In this document: in pieces, positions 64 to 14,904 of the stretch
Layout of the letters: every line of letters begins with the position of its first letter
How positions within the stretch are numbered: position 1 is the first letter of the stretch
NCBI RefSeq assembly: GCF_015101885.1
Contig: NZ_CP062941.1
Span: forward strand, 1-64,000
Source: Massilia litorea
GTDB taxonomy: Bacteria > Pseudomonadota > Gammaproteobacteria > Burkholderiales > Burkholderiaceae_D
Length of the DNA stretch: 64,000 nt
Direction of reading: 5' to 3'
Position numbers and translations under genes: made by a program
The notes under the pieces: generated by a model
What the model saw: the letters and a program-made list of their open reading frames with translations, nothing else
What the model was told of the DNA's origin: nothing
Database searches by the model: none

Positions 64-245
64 GGTAGTGCTCCTTTCGGTTCGGTGTGAGACCACTATA
101 GCCAGACGTTCCAGTGCACAGTAGAACTGATGCAAGTGCTTACAATCGATACATTTGGCCAGATTCCATTAACAGACTGGAAACCTTATGCTACCTCGGC
201 AGGCGTTTGCCAGCGCACGGTCGAGCTTGCCATTGAATCGGGAAT

Positions 246-280
246 CCACAACAAAACAGCCGGCGCAAAGGCCGGCTGTT
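246..280 (-). terminator. Rho-independent terminator after the TonB-C-like gene
   Basis: A perfect 10-bp stem (AACAGCCGGC / GCCGGCTGTT) with a 6-base loop is followed on the minus strand by a T-rich run. It lies 25 bases after the stop codon of the gene ending at 305. Confidence 0.85.
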
Positions 281-304
281 CTTCATGCAGGGATCGACGG
301 ATGA

Positions 305-649
305 TCAGTCGAGCTTCCATGCGTAGTCGACCTTGGCCCAGGTTTGCGCTGGTGCGCCATCCTTGGTGCCCGGCTTGAACTTGCAAGCCGACAGGCCTTT
401 TTGGGCTGCCTTGTCGAGGCCTTTGAAGCCGCTCGACTTTTCCAGCTTCGAGTCGGCGACGCTGCCGTCGGTGTTGACCAGGAAGGACATCGAGGTCGTG
501 CCCTGCTCTTCATTCATCAGCGAGGCTTTCGGGTATTCGACCTTGCACTTCGACGGGTCGAACGAGGCCGGGACTTCACCGGCGAATGCCGAGCCGGCGA
601 TGGTGGCGAAAACGAGGGTGGCGATGGCGCTCAGGTAAGGCTTTTTCAT
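305..649 (-). CDS. small secreted TonB C-terminal-domain-like protein
   Basis: A 114-residue protein. Residues 1-23 form a signal peptide ending SAFA, followed by about 90 residues resembling the TonB C-terminal fold. The part MSFLVNTDGSVADSKLEKSS, then a Lys-rich helix and CKFKPGTKDG, matches the pattern 'v.f.V..dG.v...kv.kSSG...ld.aA......c.f.P' of TonB/energy-transducer C-terminal domains. There is no TM anchor or Pro-rich linker, so it is not a classical TonB. It is probably a periplasmic stand-alone domain. The start at 649 was chosen because the signal peptide begins there. The upstream in-frame extension to 766 is polar and unlikely. Two cysteines in the mature part could form a disulfide. 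The partner and role are unknown. Confidence 0.75.
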   Translation of the reverse strand: MKKPYLSAIATLVFATIAGSAFAGEVPASFDPSKCKVEYPKASLMNEEQGTTSMSFLVNTDGSVADSKLEKSSGFKGLDKAAQKGLSACKFKPGTKDGAPAQTWAKVDYAWKLD

Positions 650-731
650 GATTTTTATTTCCCAAAAAGGTAGTTGGTCTGCCGCTGACTGCCTGCGGTC
701 TTTCAGTGAGTCCGGCTGGATTCGCCGTAAA

Positions 732-2497
732 TTAAAATTCTTCCCATTCGTCGCTGCCCGCTGCAACCGGTGCCTTCTTCGGCTTGGCCGGAGCTGCCGC
801 AGCGGCGGGCTTCTTCAGTGCCGCGCGCGGCGTACGTGCCGGACGCGCTGCCGGCGTACGCACTGCCGGCAAGGTCGCTACCGGTGCCGCTGGTGCCGGC
901 GCTGCCAAAGTCGGCTCGACGCTCTGCTCTTCGCCTTCGACCAGCTTGAAGATGCTGACCACGCGGCCCAGTTCGCCGGCCTGGTCCTGCAGGCTCTGGG
1001 CGGCGGCGGCTGCCTCTTCGACCAGGGCTGCATTCTGCTGGGTCATGCTGTCCATCTCGATGATCGACATGTTCACCTGCTCGATGCCGGCGCTCTGCTC
1101 GGCGCTGGCGTTGGCGATCTCGCCCATGATGTCGGTTACGCGCTTGACGCTCGCCACGACTTCATCCATCGTCACGCCGGCCTGGCCGACCAGCTTGCTG
1201 CCGCGCTCGACCTTCTCGACGGAATCGCCGATCAGGGTCTTGATCTCTTTGGCCGCCGCAGCCGAACGCTGGGCCAGGCTGCGCACTTCGGAAGCCACGA
1301 CCGCGAAACCACGGCCCTGCTCGCCGGCACGTGCCGCTTCGACTGCCGCGTTCAGCGCCAGGATGTTGGTCTGGAAGGCGATGCCGTCGATGACGCCGAT
1401 GATGTCGGCGATCTTGCTGGCCGAGCTGTTGATCTCGCCCATCGTGCCGACCACTTGCGACACCACGTCGCCGCCCTTGCGGGCCACGTCCGAGGCGCTG
1501 GCCGCCAGCTGGTTCGCTTCACGAGCGTGCTCGGCGTTCTGGCGGACGGTGGTGGTGAGGGTTTCCATGGCCGAGGCCGTCTTTTCCAGCGAGCTGGCCT
1601 GCAGTTCGGTACGCGAGGACAGGTCGATGTTGCCGGCGGCGATTTCACGCGAAGCGGTGCCGATGGTCTCGGTACCGCGGCGCACCTGGCTGACGATGTC
1701 GACCAGGCTGTTGCGCATGCCGTTCATTTCGGCCAGCAGGCTGCCTTGTTCAGCGGTACGGGTGTCGATGGCGATCGCCAGGTTGCCGTGGGCAATGCTG
1801 CCCGCGATCTTCGTGTGTAGTCCGGCTCGCCGCCCAGTTGTTTGATCAGGCCGCGGGTGATGACCCAGGCCGCAGCGACGCCCATCACGACGGCGACGGC
1901 CAGCAGCACCAGCATGAAGTTACGGGCGTTGACGAATGCACTGGCCGCGTCTTCCTGGCTCTGCAGGCTCTGCTTGTCTTCCAGCTCCACCAGCTTGTCG
2001 AGCGCTTCGGTCCACTTCTTCTGGACAGGACGCACTTCCTTGATCATGACGCGGGTGGCGCTCATGGCGTCGTTCTTCAGGTACAGCTCGGACGCCTTGG
2101 CAATGGCAGGCATCGCGGTGGCTTCATGGCCCTTGATCTCGGCCAGCAACGCCTTTTCGGCGTCGGTGCCTTCGGCGCCGAAGATCTTGCTGACCTTGCT
2201 CTGGGCCGCGTCGTACTTGGCGGTCTGCTCCTTGAACTTCTTGAGCTCCGGTTCCATTTCGGTCGCGTCGGTCATCAGGGTCAGCACGCGCAGCGAGGCC
2301 AGGCGGTCACTGACGTTGTTGCGCATCTCGATGACGGCGCGGCTCGACACGTTGTTGACGCTGACCACGTGGTCGAGGCGGTCCTGGATCTGCGCCATGC
2401 GCAGGACGCCGACCACGGTGACCGCGACGAGCAGCACCAGCACCAGGGCGAAGCCCAGTCCCAGGCGCATGCCGACTTTCATCTTCGATAAATTCAT
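732..2497 (-). pseudogene. methyl-accepting chemotaxis protein, frameshifted
   Basis: A membrane chemoreceptor. The N-terminal part (1812-2497) has TM1 at about residues 10-32, a periplasmic four-helix-bundle-type ligand domain, and TM2 at about 192-214. The C-terminal part (732-1811) has the HAMP end and the conserved signalling hairpin ([20 protein letters not shown]). It ends in EWEEF, a CheR/CheB-docking pentapeptide of the xWxxF type. The two halves are in different frames. Between codons GAC-TAC and AAG-ATC-GCG at 1812-1816 there are five bases where six are expected. Restoring one base gives a normal receptor of about 588 residues. A good ribosome binding site (AGGAAG) precedes the ATG at 2497. 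Either this is a genuine recent single-base loss or it is a sequencing error. Confidence 0.85.
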
Positions 2498-2968
2498 TTC
2501 GCTTCCTAGCTGTTGATCAGATTTGCTTCGGTGGTGCCGTCGTCGGAGGCTGCGTTCCCTAACGGCAAGTCTTTCCCGTAGGATAAATCAAAAACTTACC
2601 GCCAAGGCTCGAAAACAGTGCAGTTATCAAAAAACGCAGGGCCGGGCGCAGAACGTTTTGTTGCAAATCCTCAATTCCGTGTTCGAAATTATGGAGCGGA
2701 CCTTGCCATAGAGCAAGCGCAGCCTTCACCTGTCTACACAAATTTATATTTCCGTGTAGTAAATTTCCTACATGCAAGCAAAACAGCACGCATGTTCTTG
2801 TCGTACGCACCATAGCTGGTGACATAGGGCAATCGACATGATTGCCTCGACAATAACTGAACTACAAGAAGTGGGATTGGGAGAACGAAGCGCCTGCGAG
2901 CGCTGGGAGCAAACAGGAAGGCGAAGCAGGCGGCTGTCTGGCAGCCACCTGCCGGTAAGGCGATGGCC
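2498..2968. other. intergenic region between dusA and the chemoreceptor
   Basis: About 470 bases without a convincing gene. Small open frames here have neither ribosome binding sites nor recognisable protein character. An inverted repeat (GTAAGGC/GCCTTAC, about 2956-2972) overlaps the dusA stop codon but has no T-run. The chemoreceptor promoter must lie in the left half. Confidence 0.6.
2573..2599 (-). promoter_or_regulatory. possible sigma-28-type promoter for the chemoreceptor gene
   Basis: On the minus strand GTAAGTTT is followed after 11 bases by TACGGGAA, against the FliA consensus TAAAGTTT-N11-GCCGATAA. This is 6/8 at -35 and 4/8 at -10. Position (about 70 bases before the start codon) and gene class fit FliA control, but the -10 match is weak. 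Confidence 0.3.
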
Positions 2969-3970
2969 TTACAGGCTGCGGATCTGGGCTGCCGCTTCCA
3001 GCAACAGGCCGGGGTTGGCCGTGGCCAGCCTCTTCGGGTCCGACAACATCTGGCGGAAGGCACGCGCCCCCGGCAGGCCGGCCGTCAAACCGAGCATGTG
3101 GCGCGTGATGCTGTTGAGCTTGAGGCCATGCCCGCCATATTGCGCGAGCTGGGCGGCGATATACGGCACCATCGCCGCCAGCACCTCGGCGCGCGTCTTC
3201 GGCGCGGCGTCGTCGCCGTAGAAGCGGGCGTCCCAGTTCGCCATCGAATACGGGTTGTGGTAGGCCTCGCGGCCGAGCATGACGCCGTCCACGTGCTGCA
3301 AGTGCAGCGCGATTTCGTCATCCGTCTTGATGCCGCCGTTGATGATGATTTCCAGCTCCGGAAACTCACGCTTGAGTGCATATGCCACTTCGTAGCGCAG
3401 CGGCGGAATCTCGCGGTTCTCCTTCGGCGACAGGCCCTTCAGGATGGCATTTCTCGCGTGGACGATGAAGGTGCGGCAGCCGGCATCGGCGATCGTACCG
3501 ACGAAATCACGCACAAAACCGTATTCCTCGTCCTTGTCGATGCCGATCCGATGCTTCACCGTGACGTCGATCGACACCGCATCGCGCATCGCCTTGACGC
3601 AGTCGGCCACCAGCTGGGGCTCGTTCATCAGGCAGGCACCGAAGGCGCCGCGCTGCACGCGCTCGGATGGGCAGCCGCAATTGAGGTTGATCTCGTCATA
3701 GCCCCACTCCTGGCCCAGCTTCGCGCTTTTCGCGAGGTCAAGCGGCTCGCTGCCGCCCAGCTGCAGCGCGACCGGATGCTCGATCTCGTCAAAACGCAGG
3801 TGGCGCTCGACGTCGCCGTAGACCAGGGCGCCGGTGGTCACCATCTCTGTATACAGCCAGGTATGGCGCGTGATCTGGCGGTGGAAGACGCGGCAATGGC
3901 GGTCGGTCCAGTCCATCATGGGGGCTACACTCAGTAACCTACTGTTTTTGTTACTCTTTTCGTTGTTCAT
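2969..3970 (-). CDS. dusA: tRNA-dihydrouridine(20/20a) synthase DusA, with island-supplied 5' end
   Basis: An FMN/NADPH-dependent enzyme that reduces uridine 20/20a in the tRNA D-loop. The 333 residues show the family features in order: SVAPMMDWTDRHCR at the start, the INLNCGCPSERVQ region with the catalytic Cys (GCPS), TVKHRIGID, IINGGI, and DGVMLGREAYHNP near the FMN phosphate site. The first 12 codons (MNNEKSNKNSRL) and the upstream region come from the genomic island. From LSVAPMMDW the sequence is the chromosomal gene. The ATG at 3970 is taken as start, although a TTG at 3988 is in frame and no strong ribosome binding site is visible. The original start lies 7.6 kb away at 11607. The enzyme should still be made, because the joint keeps the frame. 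Confidence 0.93.
   Translation of the reverse strand: MNNEKSNKNSRLLSVAPMMDWTDRHCRVFHRQITRHTWLYTEMVTTGALVYGDVERHLRFDEIEHPVALQLGGSEPLDLAKSAKLGQEWGYDEINLNCGCPSERVQRGAFGACLMNEPQLVADCVKAMRDAVSIDVTVKHRIGIDKDEEYGFVRDFVGTIADAGCRTFIVHARNAILKGLSPKENREIPPLRYEVAYALKREFPELEIIINGGIKTDDEIALHLQHVDGVMLGREAYHNPYSMANWDARFYGDDAAPKTRAEVLAAMVPYIAAQLAQYGGHGLKLNSITRHMLGLTAGLPGARAFRQMLSDPKRLATANPGLLLEAAAQIRSL
3906..3925. repeat. attL core (20 bp) within dusA
   Basis: GTCCAGTCCATCATGGGGGC is repeated exactly at 11558-11577. On the dusA strand it encodes APMMDW plus part of the following Thr codon. Integration into the 5' end of dusA by a tyrosine integrase is an established strategy of a family of prophages and islands. 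The adjacent integrase gene supports the assignment. Confidence 0.92.
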
Positions 3971-3991
3971 TTTGGCTATGTGCAGCAATCA

Positions 3992-4010
3992 GTGCACACG
4001 TCGTGCACAC
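3992..4010 (+). repeat. paired GTGCACAC direct repeats near attL
   Basis: Two copies of GTGCACAC are separated by three bases (GTC), about 66 bases inside the attL core and just upstream of the integrase gene. The same arrangement recurs inside attR at 11503-11521. They are candidate arm-type sites for the integrase or a directionality factor, which is inference from position. Confidence 0.6.
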
Positions 4011-4067
4011 AGGGTAAATAATTCGTTCATAATCCGGGCATAACTCAACATACATGAATTGCACACG

Positions 4068-5117
4068 ATGGCGACAATAACGAAGCTACCCAGCGGGAAA
4101 TGGCGGGCACAGGTTAGGAAAGGTGGCATGTACCGGGGAGAGACGTTCACCCGAAAGCGTGACGCTGAGTCATGGGCGAAACAAGTAGAAGTTCAAGCGG
4201 AGCACATTGTTGCGAGCGGATACCAGCCCGTACCAGAAGGTTATAGCGTAGGCGACCTAATCGACGGTTACGCCCAAGAGTGTAACATGGGCGGCCGCAC
4301 CAAACAGGCAACCCATGCCATGCTGAGGCGGGAGCTAGGGAGCGTTCCGCTGAAACGCCTCAACAGTATCCACTTGCGTGACTTCATCGACATAAGAGTT
4401 AAAGCTGGTGCTGGCGGCGTGACGATTGCCGCAGACCTGTCCTTCTTCGGGGCGATCTTAAAGTGGGGCAAGCACTCCAGACGGATGGACCTGCCGACTG
4501 ACCTCGCCCGTGATGCGCGCAGGGATTTGAGCGCCCGAAACGTGAGCACCCGCAGTAGTGAGCGTGATCGCGAGCCAACCACGGCTGAACTCGAAAAGCT
4601 TTACGCATTCTGGACTGCCAACAAGCGCCAGACGATCCCCATGGCGACTCTCTGCGCGTTTGCCCTTGCTACAGCCATGCGCCAAGACGAGATTTGCTCG
4701 ATCCAACTAGAAGATGTGGATGCGGAGAAGCGCACGGTTATCATTCGCGACCGGAAGGACCCCCGCAAGAAAGAAGGAAACCACCAAACGGTTCCCCTGC
4801 TACCTGCTGCATGGGCACTAGTCGAACCACTACTGGCAATGCGAAAGATTGGACGGGTGTTTCCATATCAGGCATCCAGCGTAAGTACAGCATTCACCCG
4901 TGCATGTGCCAAGGTGGGCATCGAAGACCTTCGGTTCCACGATCTTCGGCATAAGGCCACAAGCGACCTGTTCCGCCTTGGGCTGTCAATTCCAGAGGTT
5001 GCGGTACTGACAGGTCATAAAACGTGGACCCAACTGAAACGCTACACCCATACCAATTCGGAAGATGTACACGCGGCTGTGTTGGCGTTATCCAAAGTTC
5101 AGACTCAGACACCATGA
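4068..5117 (+). CDS. int: tyrosine recombinase/integrase of the dusA island
   Basis: It catalyses site-specific integration and excision at dusA. The 349 residues have an N-terminal AP2-like arm-binding part (about 1-50), a SAM-like core-binding domain (about 55-150) and a C-terminal catalytic domain (about 170-335). The catalytic set appears complete: Arg205 (ATAMRQDEI), a Lys near 230, His291-x-x-Arg294 (HDLRH), His317 (LTGHKTW) and the nucleophile Tyr326 (LKRYTHTN). The ATG at 4068 is preferred over an in-frame TTG nine bases earlier. It is divergent from dusA, with only about 100 bases between them holding the GTGCACAC repeats, so its own binding sites may control it. Its stop codon overlaps the next gene by ATGA. 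Confidence 0.95.
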   Translation: MATITKLPSGKWRAQVRKGGMYRGETFTRKRDAESWAKQVEVQAEHIVASGYQPVPEGYSVGDLIDGYAQECNMGGRTKQATHAMLRRELGSVPLKRLNSIHLRDFIDIRVKAGAGGVTIAADLSFFGAILKWGKHSRRMDLPTDLARDARRDLSARNVSTRSSERDREPTTAELEKLYAFWTANKRQTIPMATLCAFALATAMRQDEICSIQLEDVDAEKRTVIIRDRKDPRKKEGNHQTVPLLPAAWALVEPLLAMRKIGRVFPYQASSVSTAFTRACAKVGIEDLRFHDLRHKATSDLFRLGLSIPEVAVLTGHKTWTQLKRYTHTNSEDVHAAVLALSKVQTQTP

Positions 5118-5635
5118 CAAAAATTACTGACGAACCATTCAACGGCTTCCCAGCAGACGGTACACCTGTACAGTTCTTCGAGTGCGTGCAGCGTGCTCTT
5201 ACGTGGCTTGAACCCTACCTGAACGACAACGACATCAACCACGCTACCTTAGTCGCATATTGCCGCTCATATGCCAATTTGGTGTTCTGTGACGGCGAGC
5301 AACAAGCGTACGACAGTCAGGAATCGCTGAATGCAGCGTTGAAACAGGTAGTAGTCAAACAGCAGCAGATCGTGACCGTTTTCAGCGGAGTACGGAACTC
5401 CATTTTGTCGGCACAGGCGCTTGCTCAGGTCGAAAGCCATAGCAAGACCCAGAGCGAGCGAGCATCGAAGCCTCGAAAACTGGAGGAAAGCGACTGCCGC
5501 CGCATCGCGAAGCGGTACTGGGACAGCAAAGCGGATGGGACCAGCTACGGTATTGTGAAGGCGCTTGCGGCTGAATACGATGTTAGCCCGACAACCATCC
5601 ACGCCACAGCGAAAAAGTACAACCCGCTGAATTGA
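5114..5635 (+). CDS. unknown protein with C-terminal HTH-like region, coupled to the integrase
   Basis: A 173-residue protein starting at the ATG that overlaps the integrase stop (ATGA), so it is probably translationally coupled. The N-terminal two thirds is helical and mixed-charge with no recognised motif. The C-terminal 50 residues (CRRIAKRYWDSKADGTSYG, then VKALAAEYDVSPTTIHATAK) look like a helix-turn-helix with a recognition helix near SPTTIHATAKKY. The role could be regulation or assistance of integration. No family can be named. Confidence 0.7.
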   Translation: MTKITDEPFNGFPADGTPVQFFECVQRALTWLEPYLNDNDINHATLVAYCRSYANLVFCDGEQQAYDSQESLNAALKQVVVKQQQIVTVFSGVRNSILSAQALAQVESHSKTQSERASKPRKLEESDCRRIAKRYWDSKADGTSYGIVKALAAEYDVSPTTIHATAKKYNPLN

Positions 5636-5705
5636 CAAGTAACCGGGTTGCTGAATACTCGCACCTTACAGTTCAGTCCTCATCAACAACAGCAGAGGAT
5701 CTGAA

Positions 5706-5960
5706 ATGCAGGCAACCCACACCACCACCCCCAACGTAGCCGACCTAGCCCGGCTTGTGAACTGCCTAGACGAGCATGGCTTTGCCACGCTTGCAGGAGT
5801 TAAGGTGTCCACACTTGACGCATGGCGCAAACGAGGCCAAGGCCCGGAGTACGTCTTGCTCGGCAGGAACTACCTGTACCCTATCGCCGCAGTCGAGCGC
5901 CACCTTTCTTCACTTGTCAGAACTCGTAGTCCCAGCAATCCAGCGAAGACACTGATGTAG
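5706..5960 (+). CDS. small helix-turn-helix protein, excisionase/AlpA-like
   Basis: An 84-residue protein with the MerR/Xis-type winged-HTH pattern: FATLAGVKVSTLDAWRKRGQ (helix-turn-helix), a turn GPEYVLLGRNYLY and PIAAVERHL. This is the shape of small recombination-directionality factors and AlpA-like activators. The ribosome binding site AGAGGA lies about 8 bases before the ATG. Next to an integrase, the likeliest role is control of excision or of island genes. That function is inference; the fold is fairly clear. Confidence 0.75.
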   Translation: MQATHTTTPNVADLARLVNCLDEHGFATLAGVKVSTLDAWRKRGQGPEYVLLGRNYLYPIAAVERHLSSLVRTRSPSNPAKTLM

Positions 5961-6460
5961 TCGATTCTCTATCGCGAAGACAGAAAACCACAGCCTGGTT
6001 GAGCATTTCACTACGTTTTATATGTAATAGCGTTGCTGAATTTTTGAGCAGACTGGATGCGGCGGTACCGCACTGACATCAACTGAGACAGCGCCAACTC
6101 AACAGCCTATCCAAGGCAATATAAGGCCCCTAGGAGGCGCTCAAAGAAGAAGTTGGTAGGCAGGTAGCCACCAAGAAGAAATCCACTCAGAAGACCGCTA
6201 TTCCAAGATAGATAGCAAGCAGCACAGTTTGAAACACGTTATCGACAGGAATCCCGATTCGCCTCTTTGGAAGAAAGCCATTATCTCAGGCTCTCCTATG
6301 ATGACGGAGTTCTCTTGACCTGTCAATGAAAGCAGTGATTTAAGCCGTTTTAAGCACTCCCATATAGGAGAAACCCCTAACCCGCTCGTGTACCACCGCC
6401 AATTTGTACTAGTAAGTAAGGAGAAGCAGTGTAGGAGCAGTAACAGAAGGAGTATCAACA
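5961..6460. other. 500-base non-coding stretch before the HUH protein gene
   Basis: No convincing gene. A minus-strand open frame here is a Leu-rich artefact. The stretch ends with a strong ribosome binding site (AAGGAG) for the gene at 6461. Because the downstream gene is a replication-initiator-like HUH protein, a nicking site or origin could lie here. I could not pick out a defined hairpin origin by eye. Confidence 0.5.
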
Positions 6461-7012
6461 ATGAAGAAGGAAGAGACAGCCATTACACTAGCCAACGGTG
6501 GAATGCACAGCCAGAAGGCATACCGGAAGATAAAGGATATGCTCAACAATAACTACTACACCTCCCCACGCCTCTACCATCTTGTAATGATGGGTTCGGA
6601 ACAGAGCCGAGACTACCAAGCAGCCATGAAGGCTCTTTGCCTCGAACTACGCAGGAAGGAGATCCCCTGTCAGTGGAAGGGTTGTCTTGAAGTAGAAGAC
6701 GAGAAGGGATTGCATTTTCACGTGTTCATCCTGGCCGAAGCAAAGTATCGCAACCCATGCTCCGTCCTCAACCATAACTCCCAGCACTGGCTGAACGTGA
6801 TGATGCAGAAACGTGAACTGACCTACTACATCGCACCACCAGAGAACCCCATGCACCGCACGAGACTGGGTAAGCGGGTGAACTACGCCACCCTAGCTGG
6901 GGACAAACTCGCAGACTGTCTGGTTTGGATTTCGTATCTCGTAAAGAGTCGATCTAAGATTCAAGGGATGAGTCGCACCTACTTCGGGAGCCAACCCAAC
7001 CGCGCTTGTTAG
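6461..7012 (+). CDS. YagK/YfjJ (inovirus Gp2-like) HUH-type protein
   Basis: A 183-residue protein. Key features are the HUH motif in GLHFHVFILAEA (His85-Phe-His87) and a C-terminal WISYLVKSRSK segment (Tyr149, Lys152) followed by SRTYFGSQP. This is the pattern of the YagK/YfjJ-inovirus Gp2 family found in prophages and islands, which resembles rolling-circle replication initiators (HUH endonucleases). It has a very strong ribosome binding site. If active, it would nick island DNA at an origin; a regulatory role is also possible. Length fits a minimal single-domain form. Confidence 0.8.
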   Translation: MKKEETAITLANGGMHSQKAYRKIKDMLNNNYYTSPRLYHLVMMGSEQSRDYQAAMKALCLELRRKEIPCQWKGCLEVEDEKGLHFHVFILAEAKYRNPCSVLNHNSQHWLNVMMQKRELTYYIAPPENPMHRTRLGKRVNYATLAGDKLADCLVWISYLVKSRSKIQGMSRTYFGSQPNRAC

Positions 7013-7087
7013 GAGAAAGCGTCGTACAGGCCAACGCTACTACCTTGGCGAAAGGTAAGCGCAAAGCAGCTCCCAGTTCTGCTCGCG

Positions 7088-7393
7088 CTACCGTTGTTTT
7101 GCAAAGGCCCTGCGACATTTCTCGAACATTCGCTGATAAGCGCTTTTCGATGGGACGTTTTCCTCATACACCCAAAGTACGGTGTTTACAACAAACGGCG
7201 CAGCCGAGTCTTTTGAGTCAAGCTTCCCTTCCCTTATGAGTGCTCGAAGAAGCTCGTCTTGAGACACTCCTCTGTCCCGCTGCTCAGCGGACATCTTTGC
7301 TAAAGCTGCCATCGGCCTACATACACTATCATCGGCAAATGCATGCGATGCACCTAAGATCGCAAAGGAAAAAATCAGTGTTGTACGAAGCAT
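7088..7393 (-). CDS. small secreted protein of unknown function
   Basis: A 101-residue protein with a clear signal peptide (about 1-20, ending SHAFA) and a mature part of about 80 residues. The mature part has two Cys (VCRPM and EKCRRAF) that could pair. It is helical and charged: MSAEQRDRGVSQDELLRAL. No enzyme motif is seen. It is the only exported protein of the island apart from possible cargo, and it runs opposite to its neighbours. The ribosome binding site is weak (GGGAAAATTAA). Family not recognised. Confidence 0.6.
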   Translation of the reverse strand: MLRTTLIFSFAILGASHAFADDSVCRPMAALAKMSAEQRDRGVSQDELLRALIREGKLDSKDSAAPFVVNTVLWVYEENVPSKSAYQRMFEKCRRAFAKQR

Positions 7394-8102
7394 TTAATTT
7401 TCCCGTCGTTAAAGTGATCTAGTATATTAACGAATGGAAAACATTGCTATCTCTAAGCGAGCAACTCCATATTTCTAACAATTATGCTTTCAACAGAGGG
7501 TTGGTATGCGAACCGTATTACTTCATCTAGAACGCCTGCAACGTCACTACGAAGCCTCGGTACGATCCTACGATGAAGTTTCATTACTTGATCTCTCGCA
7601 CTCCCTTCGCGTATGGGCTGATCTCAAAACGGTGTTGCCACAGTTAGCTCCCGCGTTTTCCAAAACCTTGAGCTTCAAAACTTCTACGCCTGCAAAGAAA
7701 GTCTTACGCGCAGCACGTGGCTCTCGATTCGTCTTCGCTTTCATGCCCGGGGGAGTGATTACGTACGCAGCCAATGGAAGCATTGTCACAGGCCCTCAGG
7801 ATATCAAGGATAGATCTTTCACTGTCGGGGTCAGCTGCAAAATCAACACTGATGGCTCGATGGAGCTAAAAAATTACTCTTTTATGGAAGTTGCCAGCGA
7901 CCAACCAATGGTCAAGGCTGCTGCGGCAGAGGATGTCTCCCGCTGCAACTACTCCCAATGGCTTGGAGCTGAAGCTGTAAGGATGTCGTATCCAGACAAG
8001 ACCGGCGAGCTGAAAATAGTATCGATTACGAGGGAAATGCTGGCATTCCCCCACCAGCGCGGACACTTTCGATAGGTATGATGTCCCTATCGGAGGAGTT
8101 AC

Positions 8103-8390
8103 ATGGCACGTGAAAGACGGTTGTTTTCAGAAGAGTTCAAGCGCGAGGCAGTCAAGCTGGTAGGCCAGCCTGGTGCAAGCAAGGCGGCGATCGCCCGCGA
8201 CCTTGGCATTGGCGCCAATTTGCTGGGGCGGTGGTGCAGAGACGCCAACGTGGATGCAGAGGTTACGGGCGGGGGCGAGAAGGTATCGACCCAGGAATAT
8301 GAGCGCATGCGGCGCGAGCTGGCAAAGGTCAAGACGGAGCGCGACATCTTAAAAAAGGCGCTCGGCTACTTCGCAGCCGACCTCAAGTGA
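8103..8390 (+). CDS. IS3-family transposase OrfA (HTH)
   Basis: A 95-residue DNA-binding part. The HTH is at about residues 9-45 (FSEEFKREAVKLV...KAAIARDLGI) and a leucine-zipper-like helix at about 60-90 (MRRELAKVKTERDILKKALG). Ribosome binding site GGAGG precedes the ATG. It would be fused to OrfB by -1 frameshifting to make the active transposase. Confidence 0.93.
   Translation: MARERRLFSEEFKREAVKLVGQPGASKAAIARDLGIGANLLGRWCRDANVDAEVTGGGEKVSTQEYERMRRELAKVKTERDILKKALGYFAADLK
8351..8357 (+). promoter_or_regulatory. programmed -1 frameshift site (A AAA AAG)
   Basis: In the orfA frame the run is read as TTA AAA AAG, so A AAA AAG fits the X XXY YYZ slippery rule. It lies 31 bases before the orfA stop, and orfB is in the -1 frame. 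This is the standard IS3-family arrangement. Confidence 0.8.
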
Positions 8391-9247
8391 AGTACGGCTT
8401 CATCGCCAAATATAGAGCCATCTGGCCAACGCGAACGATGTGTCGTCTGCTTGGTGTGTCGAGCAGTGGTTTTTACGACTGGCTCGGCCGACCAATAAGT
8501 GCGCATGAACGTGAGAATGCGCAGCTCCTCAAGGCGATCAAGCACAGCCACGAAGCCAGCGATGGCACATACGGTTCGCCGCGCGTAGTGCGAGACCTTA
8601 TCGATGCTGGCTTTGCCTGCAGTGAGAACCGCGTGGCACGGCTGATGAAAGCTGCCGGCATCAAGGCCCGCCACAAGCGTCGCCGCGCACCTGGGCAGCT
8701 CGATTCGCCAGTCCACGCCATCGCGCCGAACCTGCTGGACCGGCAATTTGAAGCGCCAGGCCCGAACCAGAAATGGGCTGCTGACTTTACTTACGTATGG
8801 ACTGGCGAAGGCTGGCTGTTTGTCGCTGTCGTCCTTGACCTGTACTCGCGGCGTGTGGTGGGCTGGTCGATGCAACCGACCATGACAGCGCAGCTGGTAA
8901 TGGATGCCCTGCTGATGGCCATCTTCCGCCGCGGCCGGCCTCGGGCAGTATTGCATCACTCGGACCAGGGCTCGCAATACACCAGCGAAGACTTCCAGCG
9001 CTTGCTCGAATCGCACGGCATCGTTTGCAGCATGAGCCGTCGCGGCAACTGCTGGGACAACGCTGCAATGGAAAGCTTCTTTTCGACGCTGAAAACCGAG
9101 CGGCTGAGCAAAAAGCACTACCGGACCAGGGATGATTTACGGGCAGACGTGTTCGACTATATCGAAAGGTTCTACAATCCACGCCGGCGTCATTCCACTC
9201 TCGGGTATATCAGCCCGGTACAGTTTGAAAACCTAAAATGCGCCTAA
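8387..9247 (+). CDS. IS3-family transposase OrfB (DDE integrase core)
   Basis: A 286-residue catalytic part with an HTH_21-like N-terminus and an rve integrase core. The acidic triad is complete: Asp133 (AADFTYVW), Asp193 (HHSDQGSQY) and Glu229 (DNAAMESFF), with the DD(35)E spacing typical of IS3. The listed start is the GTG at 8387. The functional product is more likely the OrfAB fusion made at the upstream slippery site. Confidence 0.93.
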   Translation: MKYGFIAKYRAIWPTRTMCRLLGVSSSGFYDWLGRPISAHERENAQLLKAIKHSHEASDGTYGSPRVVRDLIDAGFACSENRVARLMKAAGIKARHKRRRAPGQLDSPVHAIAPNLLDRQFEAPGPNQKWAADFTYVWTGEGWLFVAVVLDLYSRRVVGWSMQPTMTAQLVMDALLMAIFRRGRPRAVLHHSDQGSQYTSEDFQRLLESHGIVCSMSRRGNCWDNAAMESFFSTLKTERLSKKHYRTRDDLRADVFDYIERFYNPRRRHSTLGYISPVQFENLKCA

Positions 9248-9566
9248 CGGAAGTGTCCGTGACGATGGGGGAAGGCCATGCTGATTCGGAGGGTCGCAAA
9301 TACGCTCGATGGGTCGCATCCGTCAGCAGCTCACGAAGTTAGCGAATTCGAGAACAGCTACGATCCTGCTGTTCATTACTTGCTTCAGTACTCAATGGGA
9401 GGGTTATCGCTTCCTTACTTCATCTTGCTGAAGATTGCCCAAGATATCGTCGCTATTGCTCCGAAGCTACTCCGCATCGAGTCCCAAACCGTCCCCACGT
9501 AAAATCGTTCTGTTAAATGTGCAAGAAGTACACCTTGATGAACACACTAAAACAGCCGAGAAACAC

Positions 9567-9633
9567 TGTTCAACAAGGCCGTAAAAGATAGTTGTTGCAC
9601 ATATTCCAACAATCTCTTAGACTTTGTTGAACA
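9567..9633. promoter_or_regulatory. inverted-repeat region upstream of the serine recombinase (candidate res site)
   Basis: TGTTCAACAA (9567-9576) and TTGTTGAACA (9624-9633) form a perfect 10-bp inverted repeat. A smaller inner dyad (GTTGTTG...CAACAAT) lies between them. It sits directly before the recombinase gene, where resolvases usually have their crossover and operator sites. The promoter of the gene probably overlaps it. Confidence 0.55.
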
Positions 9634-9654
9634 CATCAACGAAGGAGAAGGTGA

Positions 9655-10212
9655 ATGACCGCAGGACAAATAGTTGGGTACGTGCGCGTGAGTTCGGTGG
9701 ACCAGAACCTCGCACGTCAACTGGACGGTATAAAGCTGGACAGAGTGTTTGAAGATAAGGCATCCGGCAAAGATGTGAAGCGCCCTGCTCTGGTAGCCCT
9801 ACAAGCTTTTGTTCGTGAAGGCGATACCGTTATGGTGCACTCTATTGACCGCCTTGCCCGTAACCTTGTCGATCTGCGAGCGATCGTTTCGGGCCTGAAC
9901 GATAAGGGCGTAGCCGTTACCTTCGTCAAGGAAAACTTGACCTTCAGCGCAGACACTTCCAGTCCGATGAACACACTCATGCTTTCCATGATGGGAGCAT
10001 TCGCAGAGTTTGAGCGGTCGATGATCCTGGAGCGACAGCGCGAAGGTATCGCGGCAGCGAAGGCAGCAGGCAAGCCCGCGGGCCGACCAGAACGGCTCAA
10101 GCCAGCCGATGTGGAAGCGATCAAGGCCCGCTGCGCTGCTGGCGATAGTAAGGTAGCACTAGCGGCTGAATACAACGTGTCGAGAGGTACGCTTTACGCC
10201 GCCCTGAAGTGA
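9655..10212 (+). CDS. serine recombinase (resolvase/invertase family)
   Basis: A 185-residue small serine recombinase. The catalytic domain starts GYVRVSSVDQ with the nucleophile Ser13. It continues with the conserved Arg region HSIDRLARNLVDL, the KENLTF segment, and LMLSMMGAFAEFERSMILER leading into the long E-helix. The C-terminus is an HTH (KVALAAEYNVSRGTLYAAL). Size and order match Tn3-type resolvases and invertases. Ribosome binding site GAAGGAGAAGG lies close to the ATG. No transposase partner is present, so it may resolve island multimers or be cargo. The dyad upstream is its likely target. Confidence 0.92.
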   Translation: MTAGQIVGYVRVSSVDQNLARQLDGIKLDRVFEDKASGKDVKRPALVALQAFVREGDTVMVHSIDRLARNLVDLRAIVSGLNDKGVAVTFVKENLTFSADTSSPMNTLMLSMMGAFAEFERSMILERQREGIAAAKAAGKPAGRPERLKPADVEAIKARCAAGDSKVALAAEYNVSRGTLYAALK

Positions 10213-10219
10213 TTACGAT

Positions 10220-10235
10220 AGCCGTAAATACGGCT
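10220..10235. terminator. short hairpin between convergent genes
   Basis: AGCCGTA/TACGGCT with a 2-base loop lies between the stop codons of the recombinase and the RelA/SpoT gene. There is no clear T-run on either side, so terminator function is uncertain. Confidence 0.35.
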
Positions 10236-10243
10236 TACTCCTT

Positions 10244-11257
10244 TCATCCCGTAATGACTCGTACTTCGTTCAAAAACTGCTCAGTATCCAAAAAGTAGTT
10301 CGGATATGCTCTTTTGAGTGAATTTATCGAGGACACGGATACGAGAACCACGCGCACTGACGAGCCAGCAGGAATAAGGCTTTCAGCGGTTGTATATTCA
10401 TGGTGTGCAAGTCTGGACTGTTCTTTGCGATACCCTCTTACGAACACCCTTCGACCAGCAGGTTCGAGCCGGACGAGGAAGTAGCGCGCATTCTTCTGCT
10501 GCTCAACCCTCGGCAGAATCGCCCTGTACGCCGCAAACACGTTCGCCATGTGATGACTAGCGTTAAGCTGCCGTATTTCTTCGGAGAGCTTGAGAAAGTC
10601 GTCGGACGTTCCTGGAACCGTAGGGCACCCTTCCCGCAGCGCAAAGACAGAACTCATCAGTGCGAAGAAGCGCCTCCATTCCTCGCTCCCTAGGTTCGAC
10701 TTCAGGGCCTGCCCAGTGAATGTTTCCGCTGCCTCGACAGCAGTAGCCCATTTATGTTGTAACTGTGTCCGAATCTGGATTTCAAGCTTCAGCCCGGCAT
10801 AGGGACTAGAAGCACCAGCGAACGTGTACATAAGGTGGACACCCCGGTAGCCAGTTGGTTTGGGTGTTGCAATATAGTCCTTGCTGTTCGACAGTGTATG
10901 GACTAAAGGCGAATTCACGTACGTCGCCTCCAACCGTCTGACCAATTGGACGGTCGGCATGACGGCTCTACAACCACCAATATCCTGCATTTGCGTCAGC
11001 CGCATACTACTCTTGCTCCTGAGCTTGGCCGCAATCGAATCAAGTCGCTTGATACGCTGCACCACTAGTGCTTTCGGGGCAAGCTTCTGAGCACGGTTCT
11101 TTAGCGTGGTATGGAAGGTGTTGAGAGGATGTGCATGCGAGGCGCGAAAGTTGTCGATTATTGCCAAGCAGTCAGCGGGGTTTCCAACGGCGTCGGCAAA
11201 GGCACGACCAGCAGCGTTGTATTCGGTGCGGGTGAACTGTAGGGTAGCGTACGCCAT
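10244..11257 (-). CDS. RelA/SpoT-domain protein (stand-alone alarmone-type synthetase)
   Basis: A 337-residue protein. Residues about 40-175 are a (p)ppGpp-synthetase-like domain with all main motifs: RIKRLDSIAAKLRSK (ATP loop), QDIGGCRAVM (Asp92, Arg97), KDYIATPKPTGYRGVHL and LEIQIRTQLQHKW (Glu159, Gln161, Arg163). There is no HD hydrolase domain and no TGS/ACT region, so it is neither housekeeping RelA nor SpoT. Residues about 180-337 form an extra C-terminal region of unknown fold. Such proteins include regulatory small alarmone synthetases and toxic ones (toxSAS), some of which act in phage defence (CapRel-like). Its place beside attR in an island favours a defence or toxin role, but that is inference. 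AGAGG precedes the ATG. Confidence 0.88.
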   Translation of the reverse strand: MAYATLQFTRTEYNAAGRAFADAVGNPADCLAIIDNFRASHAHPLNTFHTTLKNRAQKLAPKALVVQRIKRLDSIAAKLRSKSSMRLTQMQDIGGCRAVMPTVQLVRRLEATYVNSPLVHTLSNSKDYIATPKPTGYRGVHLMYTFAGASSPYAGLKLEIQIRTQLQHKWATAVEAAETFTGQALKSNLGSEEWRRFFALMSSVFALREGCPTVPGTSDDFLKLSEEIRQLNASHHMANVFAAYRAILPRVEQQKNARYFLVRLEPAGRRVFVRGYRKEQSRLAHHEYTTAESLIPAGSSVRVVLVSVSSINSLKRAYPNYFLDTEQFLNEVRVITG

Positions 11258-11502
11258 ACTGCCTCTTGGAAAAAAAAGATCATTTTAATCCGTAGAGATG
11301 CAGGGCGGAAAATTATGAAGAACTAGGGCCGTGTTCCTTGTGAAGTGAGCGAACGGCAGCAGTCTCTTGTCGATATTTCAATTTCCGGAAATGCTACAGT
11401 TCGGTCATCCCCATTGGCGTTAAGCGGCGTAACCGACCTCGCGGATTTTTTTATTTTTTTGACAAACCTAGAGGAAAGATCGGGTTTTGCAGTCACCGAT
11501 GA

Positions 11503-11521
11503 GTGCACACATCATGCACAC
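11503..11521 (+). repeat. paired GTGCACAC / ATGCACAC repeats near attR
   Basis: GTGCACAC, three bases (ATC), then ATGCACAC, about 37 bases inside attR. The spacing and orientation are the same as in the pair at 3992-4010. The 296 bases between the RelA/SpoT gene and here hold no gene I can support. Confidence 0.6.
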
Positions 11522-11553
11522 GAACCTCTTGAAACCCGCATGAATACTGGAAA

Positions 11554-11607
11554 TTACGTCCAGTCCATCATGGGGGCAACGCTGAGGGTGCGGGGGCGGT
11601 AGGTCAT
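11554..11607 (-). pseudogene. dusA: displaced original 5' end of dusA
   Basis: Reads MTYRPRTLSVAPMMDWT and then meets a TAA supplied by the island. The segment LSVAPMMDWT matches the start of the intact copy at 3906-3970. The original dusA promoter and start are therefore stranded here, 7.6 kb from the gene body. Precise excision through the att cores would rejoin it to dusA in frame. Confidence 0.9.
11558..11577. repeat. attR core (20 bp)
   Basis: Exact copy of the core at 3906-3925 (GTCCAGTCCATCATGGGGGC). To its right lies the displaced first part of dusA. Confidence 0.92.
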
Positions 11608-11706
11608 GCGGAACAATCCTTTGCTGGCGCCTCGCGCGATCGGGGAAGGCGCAGGCAAGCCGGGCATTTTACAGAAGAATCGCCCTCCCCCTCAAGCGGG
11701 GCCTGT

Positions 11707-12639
11707 TTATGCGTCAGCCGGCGGTGCGCTGCGGCGGATGCCGTCGGCCAGGGCGATCCGTGGCTGCCAGCCCGGCGGCGGCGCGCCTCCCGTCCAGGGA
11801 AGCAGCATCTCGCGCGGTCGGTCGGGGCGCGCACCCCAGTCGGCGGCGATCGGCAGGCCGGCCACGGCCTCGAAGGCGGCCACCAGCTCGGTCAGGCGCA
11901 GCGGCGCGCCGGACGATACCCGGTAGTGCAGCTGTCCCGGCGCGGCCGTGCGCAAGGCATCCGCCGCCGCAATATAGGCATCGACGACGTCGTCGACATA
12001 CACCAGGTCGAGCAGCTGGCGGCCGCTGGACATGGCCAGCCGTTCGCCGCTGCGCGCCGCGCGCCACAGCGCGGTCATCAGCTTGGGGCGGACGTCGCCC
12101 GGGCCGTAGGTGTCGAACAGCACCAGCGTCGCGACCCGGAATGCGTGCGCGTTGACGTAATACGCCAGGATCGCTTCGAAGGCCTGCTTGGTGGCGGCGT
12201 ACAGGTTGACCGGATCGTAGTCGCGGTCGCCGTAGTGCTGCCAGGCGGTGCCGGTATTGACCAGCTTGCGCACGCCGGCGACCCGCATCGCCTCGGCCAG
12301 CTGGGTGGCGAACAGCAGGTTCGCCTGCACCAGCGGCGCGACGTCCTGGGGCCGGTGCTCGGCGACGAAAACGGCGGCCAGGTGAAAGACGACATCCGGC
12401 GCGGCCTGCTGCACGATCCGGACCAGGTCCTCGGTAGCGCCTTCGAAACGGTGCACGGTCAGGGCCGGCGCCGGTGCCGGAAAGCTGGAACCGGCGCGCA
12501 GCAGGACATGCACCTTCCAGCCCGCGGCCAGGAGCCTGCGCGCGAGATGTGACCCGACATAGCCGCTGGCCCCGGTGACCAGGGCGCGGCGAGGTGGCGC
12601 TTCGTTCACGTTAGTGCTCTGGACGAACAGGTTCGGCAA
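11707..12639 (-). CDS. NAD-dependent epimerase/dehydratase (extended SDR)
   Basis: About 310 residues with an N-terminal Rossmann fold. The nucleotide-binding motif is TGASGYVGSHLARRL (GxxGxxG), followed by FHLAAVF and the active-site YAATK (YxxxK). LVYVDDVVDAYIAA is typical of sugar-nucleotide epimerases. It probably acts on an NDP-sugar. It lies before the flagellin cluster on the opposite strand, so a part in flagellin or surface glycosylation is possible but unsupported. The start is uncertain. TTG at 12639 gives the longest form and GTG at 12609 (VNEAPPRRALVTG) is equally plausible; neither has a good ribosome binding site. Confidence 0.82.
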   Translation of the reverse strand: MPNLFVQSTNVNEAPPRRALVTGASGYVGSHLARRLLAAGWKVHVLLRAGSSFPAPAPALTVHRFEGATEDLVRIVQQAAPDVVFHLAAVFVAEHRPQDVAPLVQANLLFATQLAEAMRVAGVRKLVNTGTAWQHYGDRDYDPVNLYAATKQAFEAILAYYVNAHAFRVATLVLFDTYGPGDVRPKLMTALWRAARSGERLAMSSGRQLLDLVYVDDVVDAYIAAADALRTAAPGQLHYRVSSGAPLRLTELVAAFEAVAGLPIAADWGARPDRPREMLLPWTGGAPPPGWQPRIALADGIRRSAPPADA

Positions 12640-12783
12640 CCAACGACATCGTCAAGACCTGCGGTAACGCCGCAAACCGGGCTGGCATGGGCTGCTGCCT
12701 GTTCCATCTGTCTTCCTCGTGACCCTCATGTGTGATAGCAAGATTATACGCTCGGGCAGCATGAGGCGCGCCGAGCGCTCCCA

Positions 12784-12810
12784 CCTAAAATATTTCCACA
12801 CGGCACTTAA
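12784..12810 (+). promoter_or_regulatory. conserved upstream block of flagellin 1 (sigma-28-like)
   Basis: CCTAAAAT-N11-GCACTTAA. It keeps the FliA-type spacing with GC..TAA-like -10 bases, but it is a poor match to consensus. The same block, continuing through GTCGTCTTGTA to GAGAGCGCG, precedes all three flagellins. Confidence 0.4.
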
Positions 12811-12897
12811 TGAACTGCTGAAAGCGGTCGTCTTGTACTTGTGAGAGCGCGAAGAGGCGCACCATTCAACCGATTCACCCAATACCAGGAGTTCACC

Positions 12898-13755
12898 ATG
12901 CTGAGCCTTCACACCAACGCCGCCGGCCTTTCCGCCCAAAACTCGATCTCGCGCACCCAGACCAGCCTGTCGACCTCGATGACCCGCCTGTCGACCGGTT
13001 ACCGCATCAACTCGGCAATGGACGACGCTGCCGGCCTGCAGATCGCCACCCGCCTGAAAGCACAGACCAGCGGCATGGCCGTTGCAATGCGTAACACCCA
13101 GAATTCGACTTCGATGCTGCAGACCGCCGAAGGCGCGCTCGACGAAGTAAGCAACATGCTGGTCCGCATGAAAGACCTGGCAACCCAGGCCGCCGACCAG
13201 TCGTCGACCCAGGCCGACAAGGACGCCATGCAGCTGGAATTCGACGCACTCGGCCTGGAACTGGGCAACGTGATGAAGAACACCACCTTCGGCGGCGCCA
13301 AGCTGCTGGTCGGCGGTACCGTTGCCAGCGCCATGAAATTCCAGATCGGCGCGAGCTCGACCGAAACGATGGCGGTCGACCTGTCGGGTGACGTGACCGC
13401 GGCCGACACCAACGTCGGCCTGGCCACCGCCAACTACGGCGGCGCCGCCACCGGCACCGAAATCGCCAGCGGCGCTGCCGCCACCGCCTCGATCGCCAAG
13501 CTCGACACCGCGCTGGCATCGGTCGGCAAGGTGCGTTCGGGCCTGGGCGCTGCCGCCAACCGCCTGGAACACGTGTACAACAACCTGGCCAACGTCAGCA
13601 CCAACAGCAAGGCCGCAACCGGCCGCATCATGGACACCGACTTCGCCACCGAATCGTCGAACATGACCGCCAAGCAGATGCTGATGCAAGCCGGCACCGC
13701 CATGCTGAAGCAGACCAACCAGATGTCGTCGATGGTCATGTCGCTCCTGCAGTAA
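12898..13755 (+). CDS. fliC: flagellin 1
   Basis: A 285-residue filament subunit exported by the flagellar type III system. The conserved D0/D1 N-terminus (MLSLHTNAAGLSAQNSISRT, MTRLSTGYRINSAMDDAAGL) and C-terminus (VYNNLANVSTNSKAATGRIM, NMTAKQMLMQAGTAMLKQTN) are present. The middle is very short, so it lacks large D2/D3 outer domains. It differs from the next two copies mainly in the central part (LEFDALGLELGNVMKNT and the stretch after VASAMKFQIG). The ATG at 12898 follows CAGGAG; an upstream in-frame GTG is not used. It is a single-gene unit with its own promoter block and terminator. Confidence 0.96.
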   Translation: MLSLHTNAAGLSAQNSISRTQTSLSTSMTRLSTGYRINSAMDDAAGLQIATRLKAQTSGMAVAMRNTQNSTSMLQTAEGALDEVSNMLVRMKDLATQAADQSSTQADKDAMQLEFDALGLELGNVMKNTTFGGAKLLVGGTVASAMKFQIGASSTETMAVDLSGDVTAADTNVGLATANYGGAATGTEIASGAAATASIAKLDTALASVGKVRSGLGAAANRLEHVYNNLANVSTNSKAATGRIMDTDFATESSNMTAKQMLMQAGTAMLKQTNQMSSMVMSLLQ

Positions 13756-13799
13756 TCGAATTGTCACTGCGGCCTTCCGGGGCCGCGGGACTACCCGAA

Positions 13800-13828
13800 G
13801 CCAACCGCCGCGCGGTTGGCTTTTTTTT
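13800..13828 (+). terminator. Rho-independent terminator of flagellin 1
   Basis: GCCAACCG-CCGCG-CGGTTGGC stem followed by eight T. It lies 45 bases after the stop codon. Confidence 0.95.
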
Positions 13829-13844
13829 GGCCTTCGAATAAACT

Positions 13845-13871
13845 TCAAAATAATTTCCGTACGGCATTTAA
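13845..13871 (+). promoter_or_regulatory. conserved upstream block of flagellin 2 (sigma-28-like)
   Basis: TCAAAATA-N11-GCATTTAA, same layout as before flagellin 1. The -35 half is closer to the FliA consensus. Confidence 0.4.
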
Positions 13872-13955
13872 TGAATCGATGCGGGCGGTCGTCTTGTATC
13901 GTTGAGAGCGCGCAGAACCTTGCTCCAAACGACCCAACCAACCAGGAATAACACC

Positions 13956-14813
13956 ATGCTGAGCCTTCACACCAACGCCGCCGGCCTTTCCGCCCAGAAC
14001 TCGATCTCGCGCACCCAGACCAGCCTGTCGACCTCGATGACCCGCCTGTCGACCGGTTACCGCATCAACTCGGCAATGGACGACGCTGCCGGCCTGCAGA
14101 TCGCCACCCGCCTGAAAGCACAGACCAGCGGCATGGCCGTTGCAATGCGTAACACCCAGAATTCGACTTCGATGCTGCAGACCGCCGAAGGCGCGCTGGA
14201 CGAAGTGAGCAACATGCTGGTCCGCATGAAGGACCTGGCAACCCAGGCCGCCGACCAGTCGTCGACCCAGGCCGACAAGGATGCCATGCAGCTGGAATAC
14301 GATGCACTGGGCACCGAACTGGGCAACGTGCTGAAGAACACCACCTTCGGCGGCGCCAAGCTGCTGATCGGCGGCACCATCGCCGGCGCCATGAAATTCC
14401 AGATCGGCGCGAGCTCGACCGAAACCATGACCGTCAACCTGGGCACCGACGTGGGCCAGATCGCCACCGACGTCGGCGCCGCGACGGCTTCGTACGCTGC
14501 GGGTGCAGCCGGTACCGAAATCTCGACCTCCGCCGGCGCCACTACCGCCATCGGCAGCCTCGACACCGCACTGGCGTCGGTCGGCAAGGTCCGTTCGGGC
14601 CTGGGCGCTGCCGCCAACCGCCTGGAACACGTGTACAACAACCTGGCCAACGTCAGCACCAACAGCAAGGCCGCAACCGGCCGCATCATGGACACCGACT
14701 TCGCCACCGAATCGTCGAACATGACCGCCAAGCAGATGCTGATGCAAGCCGGCACCGCCATGCTGAAGCAGACCAACCAGATGTCGTCGATGGTCATGTC
14801 GCTCCTGCAGTAA
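13956..14813 (+). CDS. fliC: flagellin 2
   Basis: A 285-residue flagellin. Its first 115 or so residues and last 95 or so are almost identical to flagellin 1, also at nucleotide level. The central part (LEYDALGTELGNVLKNT, then MTVNLGTDVGQIATDVG) differs. It differs from flagellin 3 at only three positions by my reading: Ala/Thr after DVG, Ser/Lys in TEI-TSAG, and Ser/Asn in IG-LDTA. Ribosome binding site AGGAA precedes the ATG at 13956. Confidence 0.96.
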   Translation: MLSLHTNAAGLSAQNSISRTQTSLSTSMTRLSTGYRINSAMDDAAGLQIATRLKAQTSGMAVAMRNTQNSTSMLQTAEGALDEVSNMLVRMKDLATQAADQSSTQADKDAMQLEYDALGTELGNVLKNTTFGGAKLLIGGTIAGAMKFQIGASSTETMTVNLGTDVGQIATDVGAATASYAAGAAGTEISTSAGATTAIGSLDTALASVGKVRSGLGAAANRLEHVYNNLANVSTNSKAATGRIMDTDFATESSNMTAKQMLMQAGTAMLKQTNQMSSMVMSLLQ

Positions 14814-14887: not shown

Positions 14888-14904
14888 GGCCCTTCGAAAC
14901 CAGC

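Follow-up and report, generated by a model that had tools for sequence, protein, structure and literature searches.

How can an island insert among the first codons of a gene and still leave that gene with an open reading frame (ORF)? The question is raised by dusA in the window analyzed here, the whole 64,000-nucleotide stretch at positions 1-64,000 of the forward strand of NZ_CP062941.1 (GCF_015101885.1) from Massilia litorea, in which a 7.65-kb island lies inside dusA. Judged by its sequence, this is a compact dusA-specific island of the published kind. We consider it very probable that the island is a compact dusA-specific integrative element whose supplied dusA start is kept by selection and which bears predicted integrase (Int) arm sites and useful cargo. 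The dusA junctions consist of the following features.

2969..3970, reverse strand: dusA as now read, 333 residues, with its first codons from the island (NF008774 DusA, E 5.7e-164; PF01207)
3906..3925, no strand: left 20-bp core repeat, the dusA junction (sequence comparison)
3926..3970, reverse strand: island-supplied dusA codons up to the core (sequence and comparison of islands)
11554..11607, reverse strand: stranded original dusA start, 17 codons and then an island stop (MTYRPRTLSVAPMMDWT, stop)
11558..11577, no strand: right 20-bp core repeat (sequence comparison)

The island is bounded by a direct repeat, GTCCAGTCCATCATGGGGGC, of 20 consecutive identical bases at 3906-3925 and 11558-11577, and an 18-bp core starts at 3908 and 11560, 7652 bp apart. 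The GC content is 52.6% in the island versus 61.6% (1-3900) and 65.3% (11621-20000) in the flanks. A first-pass annotation had placed the insertion at the dusA codons for MMDW; consistent with this, the flanks joined in silico by script give an uninterrupted DusA frame of 328 residues. Here, codons are numbered backward from MMDW, which occupies codons 0 to 3, and -1 is the Pro before it. The island supplies a new in-frame start, MNNEKSNKNSRLLSVAP-, and the present DusA N-terminus reads MNNEKSNKNSRLLSVAPMMDW. The sequence confirms the re-supplied start that the annotation had described, although the N-terminus quoted there was short of one Leu. The original start is left at the far end with an island stop, as had also been claimed, and beyond the core the two ends encode the same Leu-Ser-Val of the LSVAP motif with different codons (CTG AGT GTA versus CTC AGC GTT), again in agreement with the earlier description.

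The open join of the window flanks predicts an intact dusA at the empty site, and dusA is uninterrupted in G239, the nearest relative by DusA (94%); an empty dusA site of the same species or strain was not found in the genome comparisons. The native N-terminus of G239 (MTLETTPSQVPGRRLSVAP-) differs from the stranded one of the window, and the stranded start of another island, that of G367 (MTLETIPAQVPGRRLSV), is of the G239 type. In the window, an epimerase gene (11707-12639) directly follows the stranded dusA start. A related epimerase gene lies next but one upstream of dusA in G239 (77% DNA identity over 560 bp), separated from it by approximately 0.9 kb and another frame.

Is the supplied start merely open, or is it maintained? 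Among the 30 loci fetched for the best integrase matches, the window's own included, dusA adjoins int in 29, and the locus without dusA (L034) was dropped. The exclusion of eight further islands whose right end was not fetched leaves 21 pairs of supplied and stranded starts; in these pairs, the right end of G082 lies on another contig than int, and those of G117 and G373 are junctions with a second element. The supplied frame is open into dusA in all 29 islands and contains ATG, GTG or TTG in 28 of them (ATG in 22). Across the 29 islands, residues -7 (Arg), -2 (Ala) and -1 (Pro) never vary; all six Arg codons occur at -7 and all four Ala codons at -2. Ser -4 uses both AGY and TCN codons and is replaced by Cys in one island and by Ala in another. 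The ratio of nonsynonymous to synonymous differences (pN/pS) is 0.112 at codons -7 to -1 versus 0.712 at -14 to -8 in the eight close islands described below, and 0.385 versus 0.992 in all 29.

The comparison of the two ends of the same island points in the same direction. In the 21 pairs, the Arg -7 codon differs in 20 and the residue in none. The residue is changed in 10 of the 71 codon differences at -7, -5, -4 and -3 versus 83 of the 98 at -12 to -8 (Fisher p = 5e-21). These four codons were picked after the data had been seen, and inclusion of the variable codon -6 (21 differences, 16 of them residue-changing) gives 26 of 92 (p = 1e-15); because the island rows are related, the p-values are only guides. 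By this comparison, the leader codons -12 to -8 are free to vary. The supplied codons conserve the residues that they encode as their DNA sequence drifts, and the elements therefore appear to be selected to leave DusA working, which upholds the earlier suggestion of selection to rebuild the DusA N-terminus.

We propose, by analogy with the published family, that the tyrosine recombinase would recombine the core of a circular element with the MMDW codons in dusA. The sequence shows that the element DNA beside the core carries a start codon and in-frame codons for Arg-Leu-Leu-Ser-Val-Ala-Pro, so that integration swaps the first codons of dusA rather than destroying the gene, and that the old dusA start is closed by the island stop. 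Which sites would the integrase use for this reaction? The int gene and the repeats around it are as follows.

4068..5117, forward strand: int, tyrosine recombinase of the dusA-associated integrase type, divergent to dusA (PF00589, E 1.8e-25)
3993..4010, forward strand: pair of TGCACAC repeats (11 bp apart), predicted as arm sites for Int (repeat scan of the left end)
4060..4066, forward strand: third left TGCACAC repeat, just before int (repeat scan)
11504..11521, forward strand: right-end pair of TGCACAC repeats (11 bp apart), located 56 and 45 bp ahead of 11560, where the 18-bp core starts (repeat scan)

Int residues R205, H291, R294, H317 and Y326 are invariant in an eight-row alignment, and the catalytic roles of this RHRH set and Tyr were assigned by inspection. 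In all eight islands of the close group, the left core is followed by TGCACAC at +85, +96 and +152/153, and the right core is preceded by it at -56 and -45. The deviations are small: the right repeats of G111 are at -55 and -44, G347 has CGCACAC at -56, and in a ninth close island (G416) the pattern holds apart from a single mismatch at +96. In each of the 21 islands, both ends share a pair of repeats spaced by 10-13 bp, the spacing being 11 in 19. Their motifs track the integrase lineage (TGCACAC, TTGCATC, TTGGACA, TGCTACR, TGGCACA, TGCCACA, TACTCCA, TACGGAT or ATTACGG). The arm-pair scores are 36-42 of 42, a level reached in none of 60 shuffles of each island, which preserve single-base composition only. 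Tyrosine recombinases have arm-type sites, and by analogy with them the pattern of the paired end repeats suggests that they are probably arm-type Int sites. The right ends of the eight close islands have another conserved stretch approximately 20-35 bp before the core (by eye, roughly GAAACCCGCATGRATRCT), perhaps a site for a directionality factor or a host factor.

In the window's group, int and the new dusA start flank the arm repeats; in the window, the new dusA ATG is 22 bp from the first TGCACAC pair. The window has two promoter-like sites for int, compared with 0.4 expected from shuffles, and in each a left TGCACAC repeat forms the first hexamer. Given this position and this overlap of the predicted arm sites, Int binding would probably repress int and may also modulate dusA.

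Can a supplied start outlast the element that brought it? We surveyed the dusA 5' ends of 59 relatives in the genus besides the window's own genome (G392, whose contig ends at the gene, was dropped) and classed them by upstream integrase match and by the GC content of the last 60 bases. A whole int precedes dusA in 9, a broken or partial int in 11 and low-GC sequence without int in 10, and 29 are of native type. A broken int is defined by the lack of a single-frame alignment over 250 residues, a class that a sequencing frameshift could enter, and some fragments are weak (L078, E 2e-5) or distant (868 bp away in L104). An arm pair is recognized in 9/9 genomes with whole int, 6/11 with int pieces, 0/10 with low GC and 0/29 with native starts. 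The clearest scars are in G339, where both arm repeats are exact and int can be aligned only to residue 67, and in G232, which has decayed arm repeats and int fragments; no second core was found by pattern in either stretch. Because int pieces and an arm pair can persist upstream of dusA, these comparisons indicate that a supplied dusA start can outlive its island, and that dusA may keep its foreign start as the element decays. The ten low-GC starts (L071, L072, L077, L079, L081, L105-L107, L117 and L127) have leaders that mostly read MK-xx-KR-x-LS, with no integrase or arm pair in reach, and are either old scars or another native type.

A more far-reaching extension is tentative, and we would sooner doubt it than adopt it: the 5' end of this host housekeeping gene would evolve as part of an element lineage, which would carry and maintain, by selection on the protein, the first beta strand of DusA together with its control region, DusA output would follow the recombination state through the Int arm sites, and 9 plus up to 11 of the 59 dusA genes of the genus would use element-derived starts.

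What does the element carry, and how is it distributed? The remaining features of the island are as follows.

5114..5635, forward strand: orf2, small conserved protein whose frame overlaps the stop of int (8/8 close islands; phrog_517, helix-turn-helix, E 0.059 only)
5706..5960, forward strand: 84-residue excisionase/regulator-like protein, candidate directionality factor (phrog_66, E 4.6e-4)
6461..7012, forward strand: putative replication-associated protein, REP_ORF2-G2P-like (PF23343, E 1.8e-5)
7088..7393, reverse strand: small protein (phrog_2315, E 7.8e-7)
7506..8040, forward strand: 5' part of a frame split by an insertion sequence (open frame)
8041..9278, forward strand: IS3-family insertion sequence (NF033516, E 4.2e-108)
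9279..9502, forward strand: frame beyond the insertion sequence (ORF list)
9655..10212, forward strand: serine recombinase of the resolvase/invertase type (PF00239, E 2.6e-38)
10244..11257, reverse strand: RelA/SpoT-domain protein, PADLOC candidate defence family PDC-S33 (PDLC04999, E 2.6e-112; PF04607, E 2.4e-17)

The PF23343 match scores 25.4 bits, below the curated cut-off of 27.8, and the protein has relatives in G219 and G373. The IS3-family element has 36-nt inverted repeats (81% complementary) and a 3-bp duplication, TGC; the frame at 7506-8033 has no family match in profile scans, and the frame at 9279..9502 is perhaps the 3' part of the gene begun at 7506. The PDC-S33-type protein is widespread, with 5811 homologues among 8000 candidates scored; the name PDC-S33 was not found in the searched literature, most subscription papers being outside its reach. 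A low host cost and useful cargo, here this candidate anti-phage gene, would let the element persist. The orphaned dusA promoter, which lies upstream of the RelA/SpoT-domain gene and has the same orientation, could drive this gene. Promoter hijack of this kind was rejected as a rule, since the right-end gene is so oriented in only 3/8 islands (window, G347 and G373).

Of 392 genomes of the family searched with the integrase, 267 have some match and 8, the window's included, exceed 75% identity; the next near-full-length matches are at 43% identity or less. At E <= 1e-130, the integrase occurs in 4 of 62 genomes of the window's genus and in 4 of 74 of the genus of G219. A sample of 399 genomes of the order gave 8 at E <= 1e-50, the best besides the window's own being 41% identical. 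The close group is confined to one family in the sampled genomes, and the named records with matching contigs (7 loci) belong to Massilia, Duganella and Herbaspirillum sp. SJZ107.

Nine compact islands of 5.6-12.2 kb have a common int and common arm sites: G000, which is the genome containing the window (7.7 kb), G219 (6.7), G347 (9.5), G367 (8.9), G373 (9.7), G111 (12.2), G333 (12.0), G299 (11.5) and G416 (5.6), whose right core, read by eye, has one mismatch to the pattern. In the eight close islands, int is 76-90% identical to that of the window. The backbone order in the first eight is int, orf2, an excisionase-like small gene, a replication module, variable cargo and a serine recombinase. 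The excisionase-like gene is found in 7/8 at a cut-off of 60 residues (not seen in G219), and the serine recombinase forms one cluster in 7/8, G347 carrying another sequence type by eye. The replication module is REP_ORF2-G2P-like in the window, G219 and G373 and a larger protein in G111, G299, G333, G347 and G367. In the locus of G373 (L038), read in the int-forward orientation, cores at 1555, 11245 and 13809 mark two dusA elements in tandem: a close-group island is followed by a 2.6-kb stretch and then by a second, unlike integrase beside the third core. The middle start of this locus (MKYRKRTLSCAP) is similar to other element-type starts.

The cargo varies. A PADLOC scan of ten cargo proteins from G347, G367, G333, G299 and G111, with the cargo of G219, G373 and G416 left out, identified a Pycsar pair in G347 (PycC, E 6.7e-79; effector, E 4.1e-65) and an AbiTii match in G111 (E 1.7e-32). 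SIR2-like (G367), metallo-beta-lactamase-like (G299) and ATPase (G333) matches are weak, and 4 of the 10 scanned proteins have no PADLOC match. With PDC-S33 of the window, strongly matched or candidate anti-phage genes are present in 3 of the 8 close islands examined. The suggestion that the cargo set of the window may be new is plausible, but the set is one variant of a variable region. Small genes of G219 resemble, by eye, those of a metal-binding protein and a MerR regulator.

Could the LSVAP match be kept as a core-type site for DNA recognition by the integrase, and not for the residues of DusA? The match adjoins the crossover region, and codons 0 to 3 are nearly the same at both ends (3 silent differences in 21 islands). 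However, the differences at -7, -5, -3, -2 and -1 fall mostly on third positions, and DNA recognition alone is not expected to allow the full range of Arg codons at -7 or both Ser codon families at -4; we regard this explanation as highly improbable. Recent capture of dusA starts from former hosts, which would make the protein match a product of descent instead of selection on the element, is very unlikely. It would account for the same motif in supplied and native starts, for the several cores side by side in the tandem elements of G373 and for supplied starts outside the close group that are not AT-rich (GC up to 0.67). However, the supplied 12-codon segments are lower in GC than the stranded ones in 20/21 islands (the exception is G117), and codons -7 to -1 of the eight close islands have changed almost only silently, as their pN/pS of 0.112 indicates.

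An assembly artefact at the junctions would be conceivable given that the window begins a contig whose end duplicates the window start. The last 13.8 kb of the contig overlaps its first 13.8 kb (window 1-13772 and G000:C1:5174672-5188430, locus L004) at 99.8% identity with 0 mismatches and 26 gap openings, the differences being indels only. This is apparently an untrimmed circularization overlap that makes dusA and the island look duplicated, and a second dusA copy in the genome was accordingly discarded. The island is present in both overlapping ends without a mismatch, which argues that the junctions are not an assembly slip, and the arrangement recurs in eight other genomes with matching spacing of the attachment (att) features; the probability of an artefact is negligible. 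Another alternative, that the element is a phage satellite carried in helper-phage capsids, is better founded, albeit unlikely. The islands are small, have regulator-like and excisionase-like genes and defence cargo, and in relatives encode larger replication proteins that match DUF5906 in 3/3 tested (G367, G299 and G347), a domain that we take to be linked to satellite helicases. However, no capsid or packaging gene was recognized in the scanned proteins, although many ORFs lack an assignment, and no close integrase was found in the viral contig collection, where none of 10 pattern matches was confirmed. Among phages (332 records) and plasmids (2356 records), no integrase homologue reaches 60% identity, and one phage homologue carries the name shufflon-specific DNA recombinase.

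The dusA-specific integrative element with a selectively kept start is thus the explanation that we prefer, and several observations count against it. In L021, 1 of the 29 islands, none of the standard start codons occurs in the supplied frame. Cross-lineage left-right arm pairs average 31.9 with a maximum of 39, above the lowest own score of 36, and related arm motifs therefore cross-match. The ten low-GC starts without int, once considered as scars, may not be scars, given their arm-pair count of 0/10. Defence cargo may not be general: three of the PADLOC matches (G367, G299 and G333) are weak, and the PDC-S33 family has only candidate status in the database. Finally, no sigma-70-like promoter facing dusA is found at 3900-4130 at the scan threshold, and control of dusA by an island promoter, which the first-pass annotation had expected, is consequently something that we only infer.

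That dusA-integrating elements are known, as had been stated from the outset, is clear from two papers, which already describe islands that replace the promoter and 5' end of dusA. According to the main text of PMC4482086 (Farrugia et al. 2015), dusA-specific islands substitute their own sequence for the dusA 5' end, retain promoter-like sequences and make good the loss of beta-strand 1 of the barrel with a replacement strand. Like these dusA-associated integrase islands, the window island has a tyrosine recombinase beside the dusA 5' end, direct repeats (theirs imperfect, approximately 21 bp) and a replaced 5' end. Pseudomonas phage H66, on their list, encodes a homologue of the window Int (35.4%). 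Among characterized recombinases, Rci is the nearest to the integrases of these published islands, and excision as a circle is a further trait of the kind. Unlike their average of 42.6 kb (range 4.8-185 kb), with a PrtN homologue in 60/94, the window island is much smaller, has no PrtN match (no Pfam match at E 0.001 for the 84-residue candidate, orf2 or two other small ORFs) and has a compact backbone in common with its relatives. Their cargo list includes restriction-modification, itself a defence. In PMC8409611, IMEVchUSA3 and Vibrio dusA elements likewise give dusA a new promoter and an altered N-terminus, as was shown there with a dusA'-'lacZ fusion; after IMEVchUSA3 insertion, dusA is still expressed, at a reduced level. 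Those elements are SGI1-like, are mobilized by IncC plasmids and have rdfN (PrtN type) across attP from int, whereas such genes were not recognized in the window island, whose excisionase-like gene lies two genes downstream of int; general family scans of the window's scanned ORFs gave no relaxase match. The integrative and conjugative element SXT differs in its target gene, prfC.

The re-supplied start is already explained in outline in print, and we claim no priority on the arm sites and scars. The main text of PMC4482086 does not contain the words arm, codon, synonymous, defence or defense, and its "direct repeat" denotes the att core; that of PMC8409611 contains neither "arm-type" nor "synonymous", and uses "direct repeat" and "defense" once each in other senses. 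Our comparisons add evidence of selection on the supplied start, predicted arm sites, a start that can outlast its island, and cargo. Restoration of DusA by dusA islands, until now a suggestion in the literature, thereby becomes a measured case in which an element is selected to keep its target working, and a testable att architecture of core, lineage-specific arm motifs and spacing is defined. Replacement of target-gene starts by elements that later decay matters for start annotation and for how islands cut their cost, and the compact group marks dusA as a place to seek small carriers of anti-phage genes.

Beyond the island and the epimerase gene, two genes at 12841-13755 and 13902-14813 are flagellin-like by eye, and DNA approximately 89% like the first occurs again at 14900-15875.

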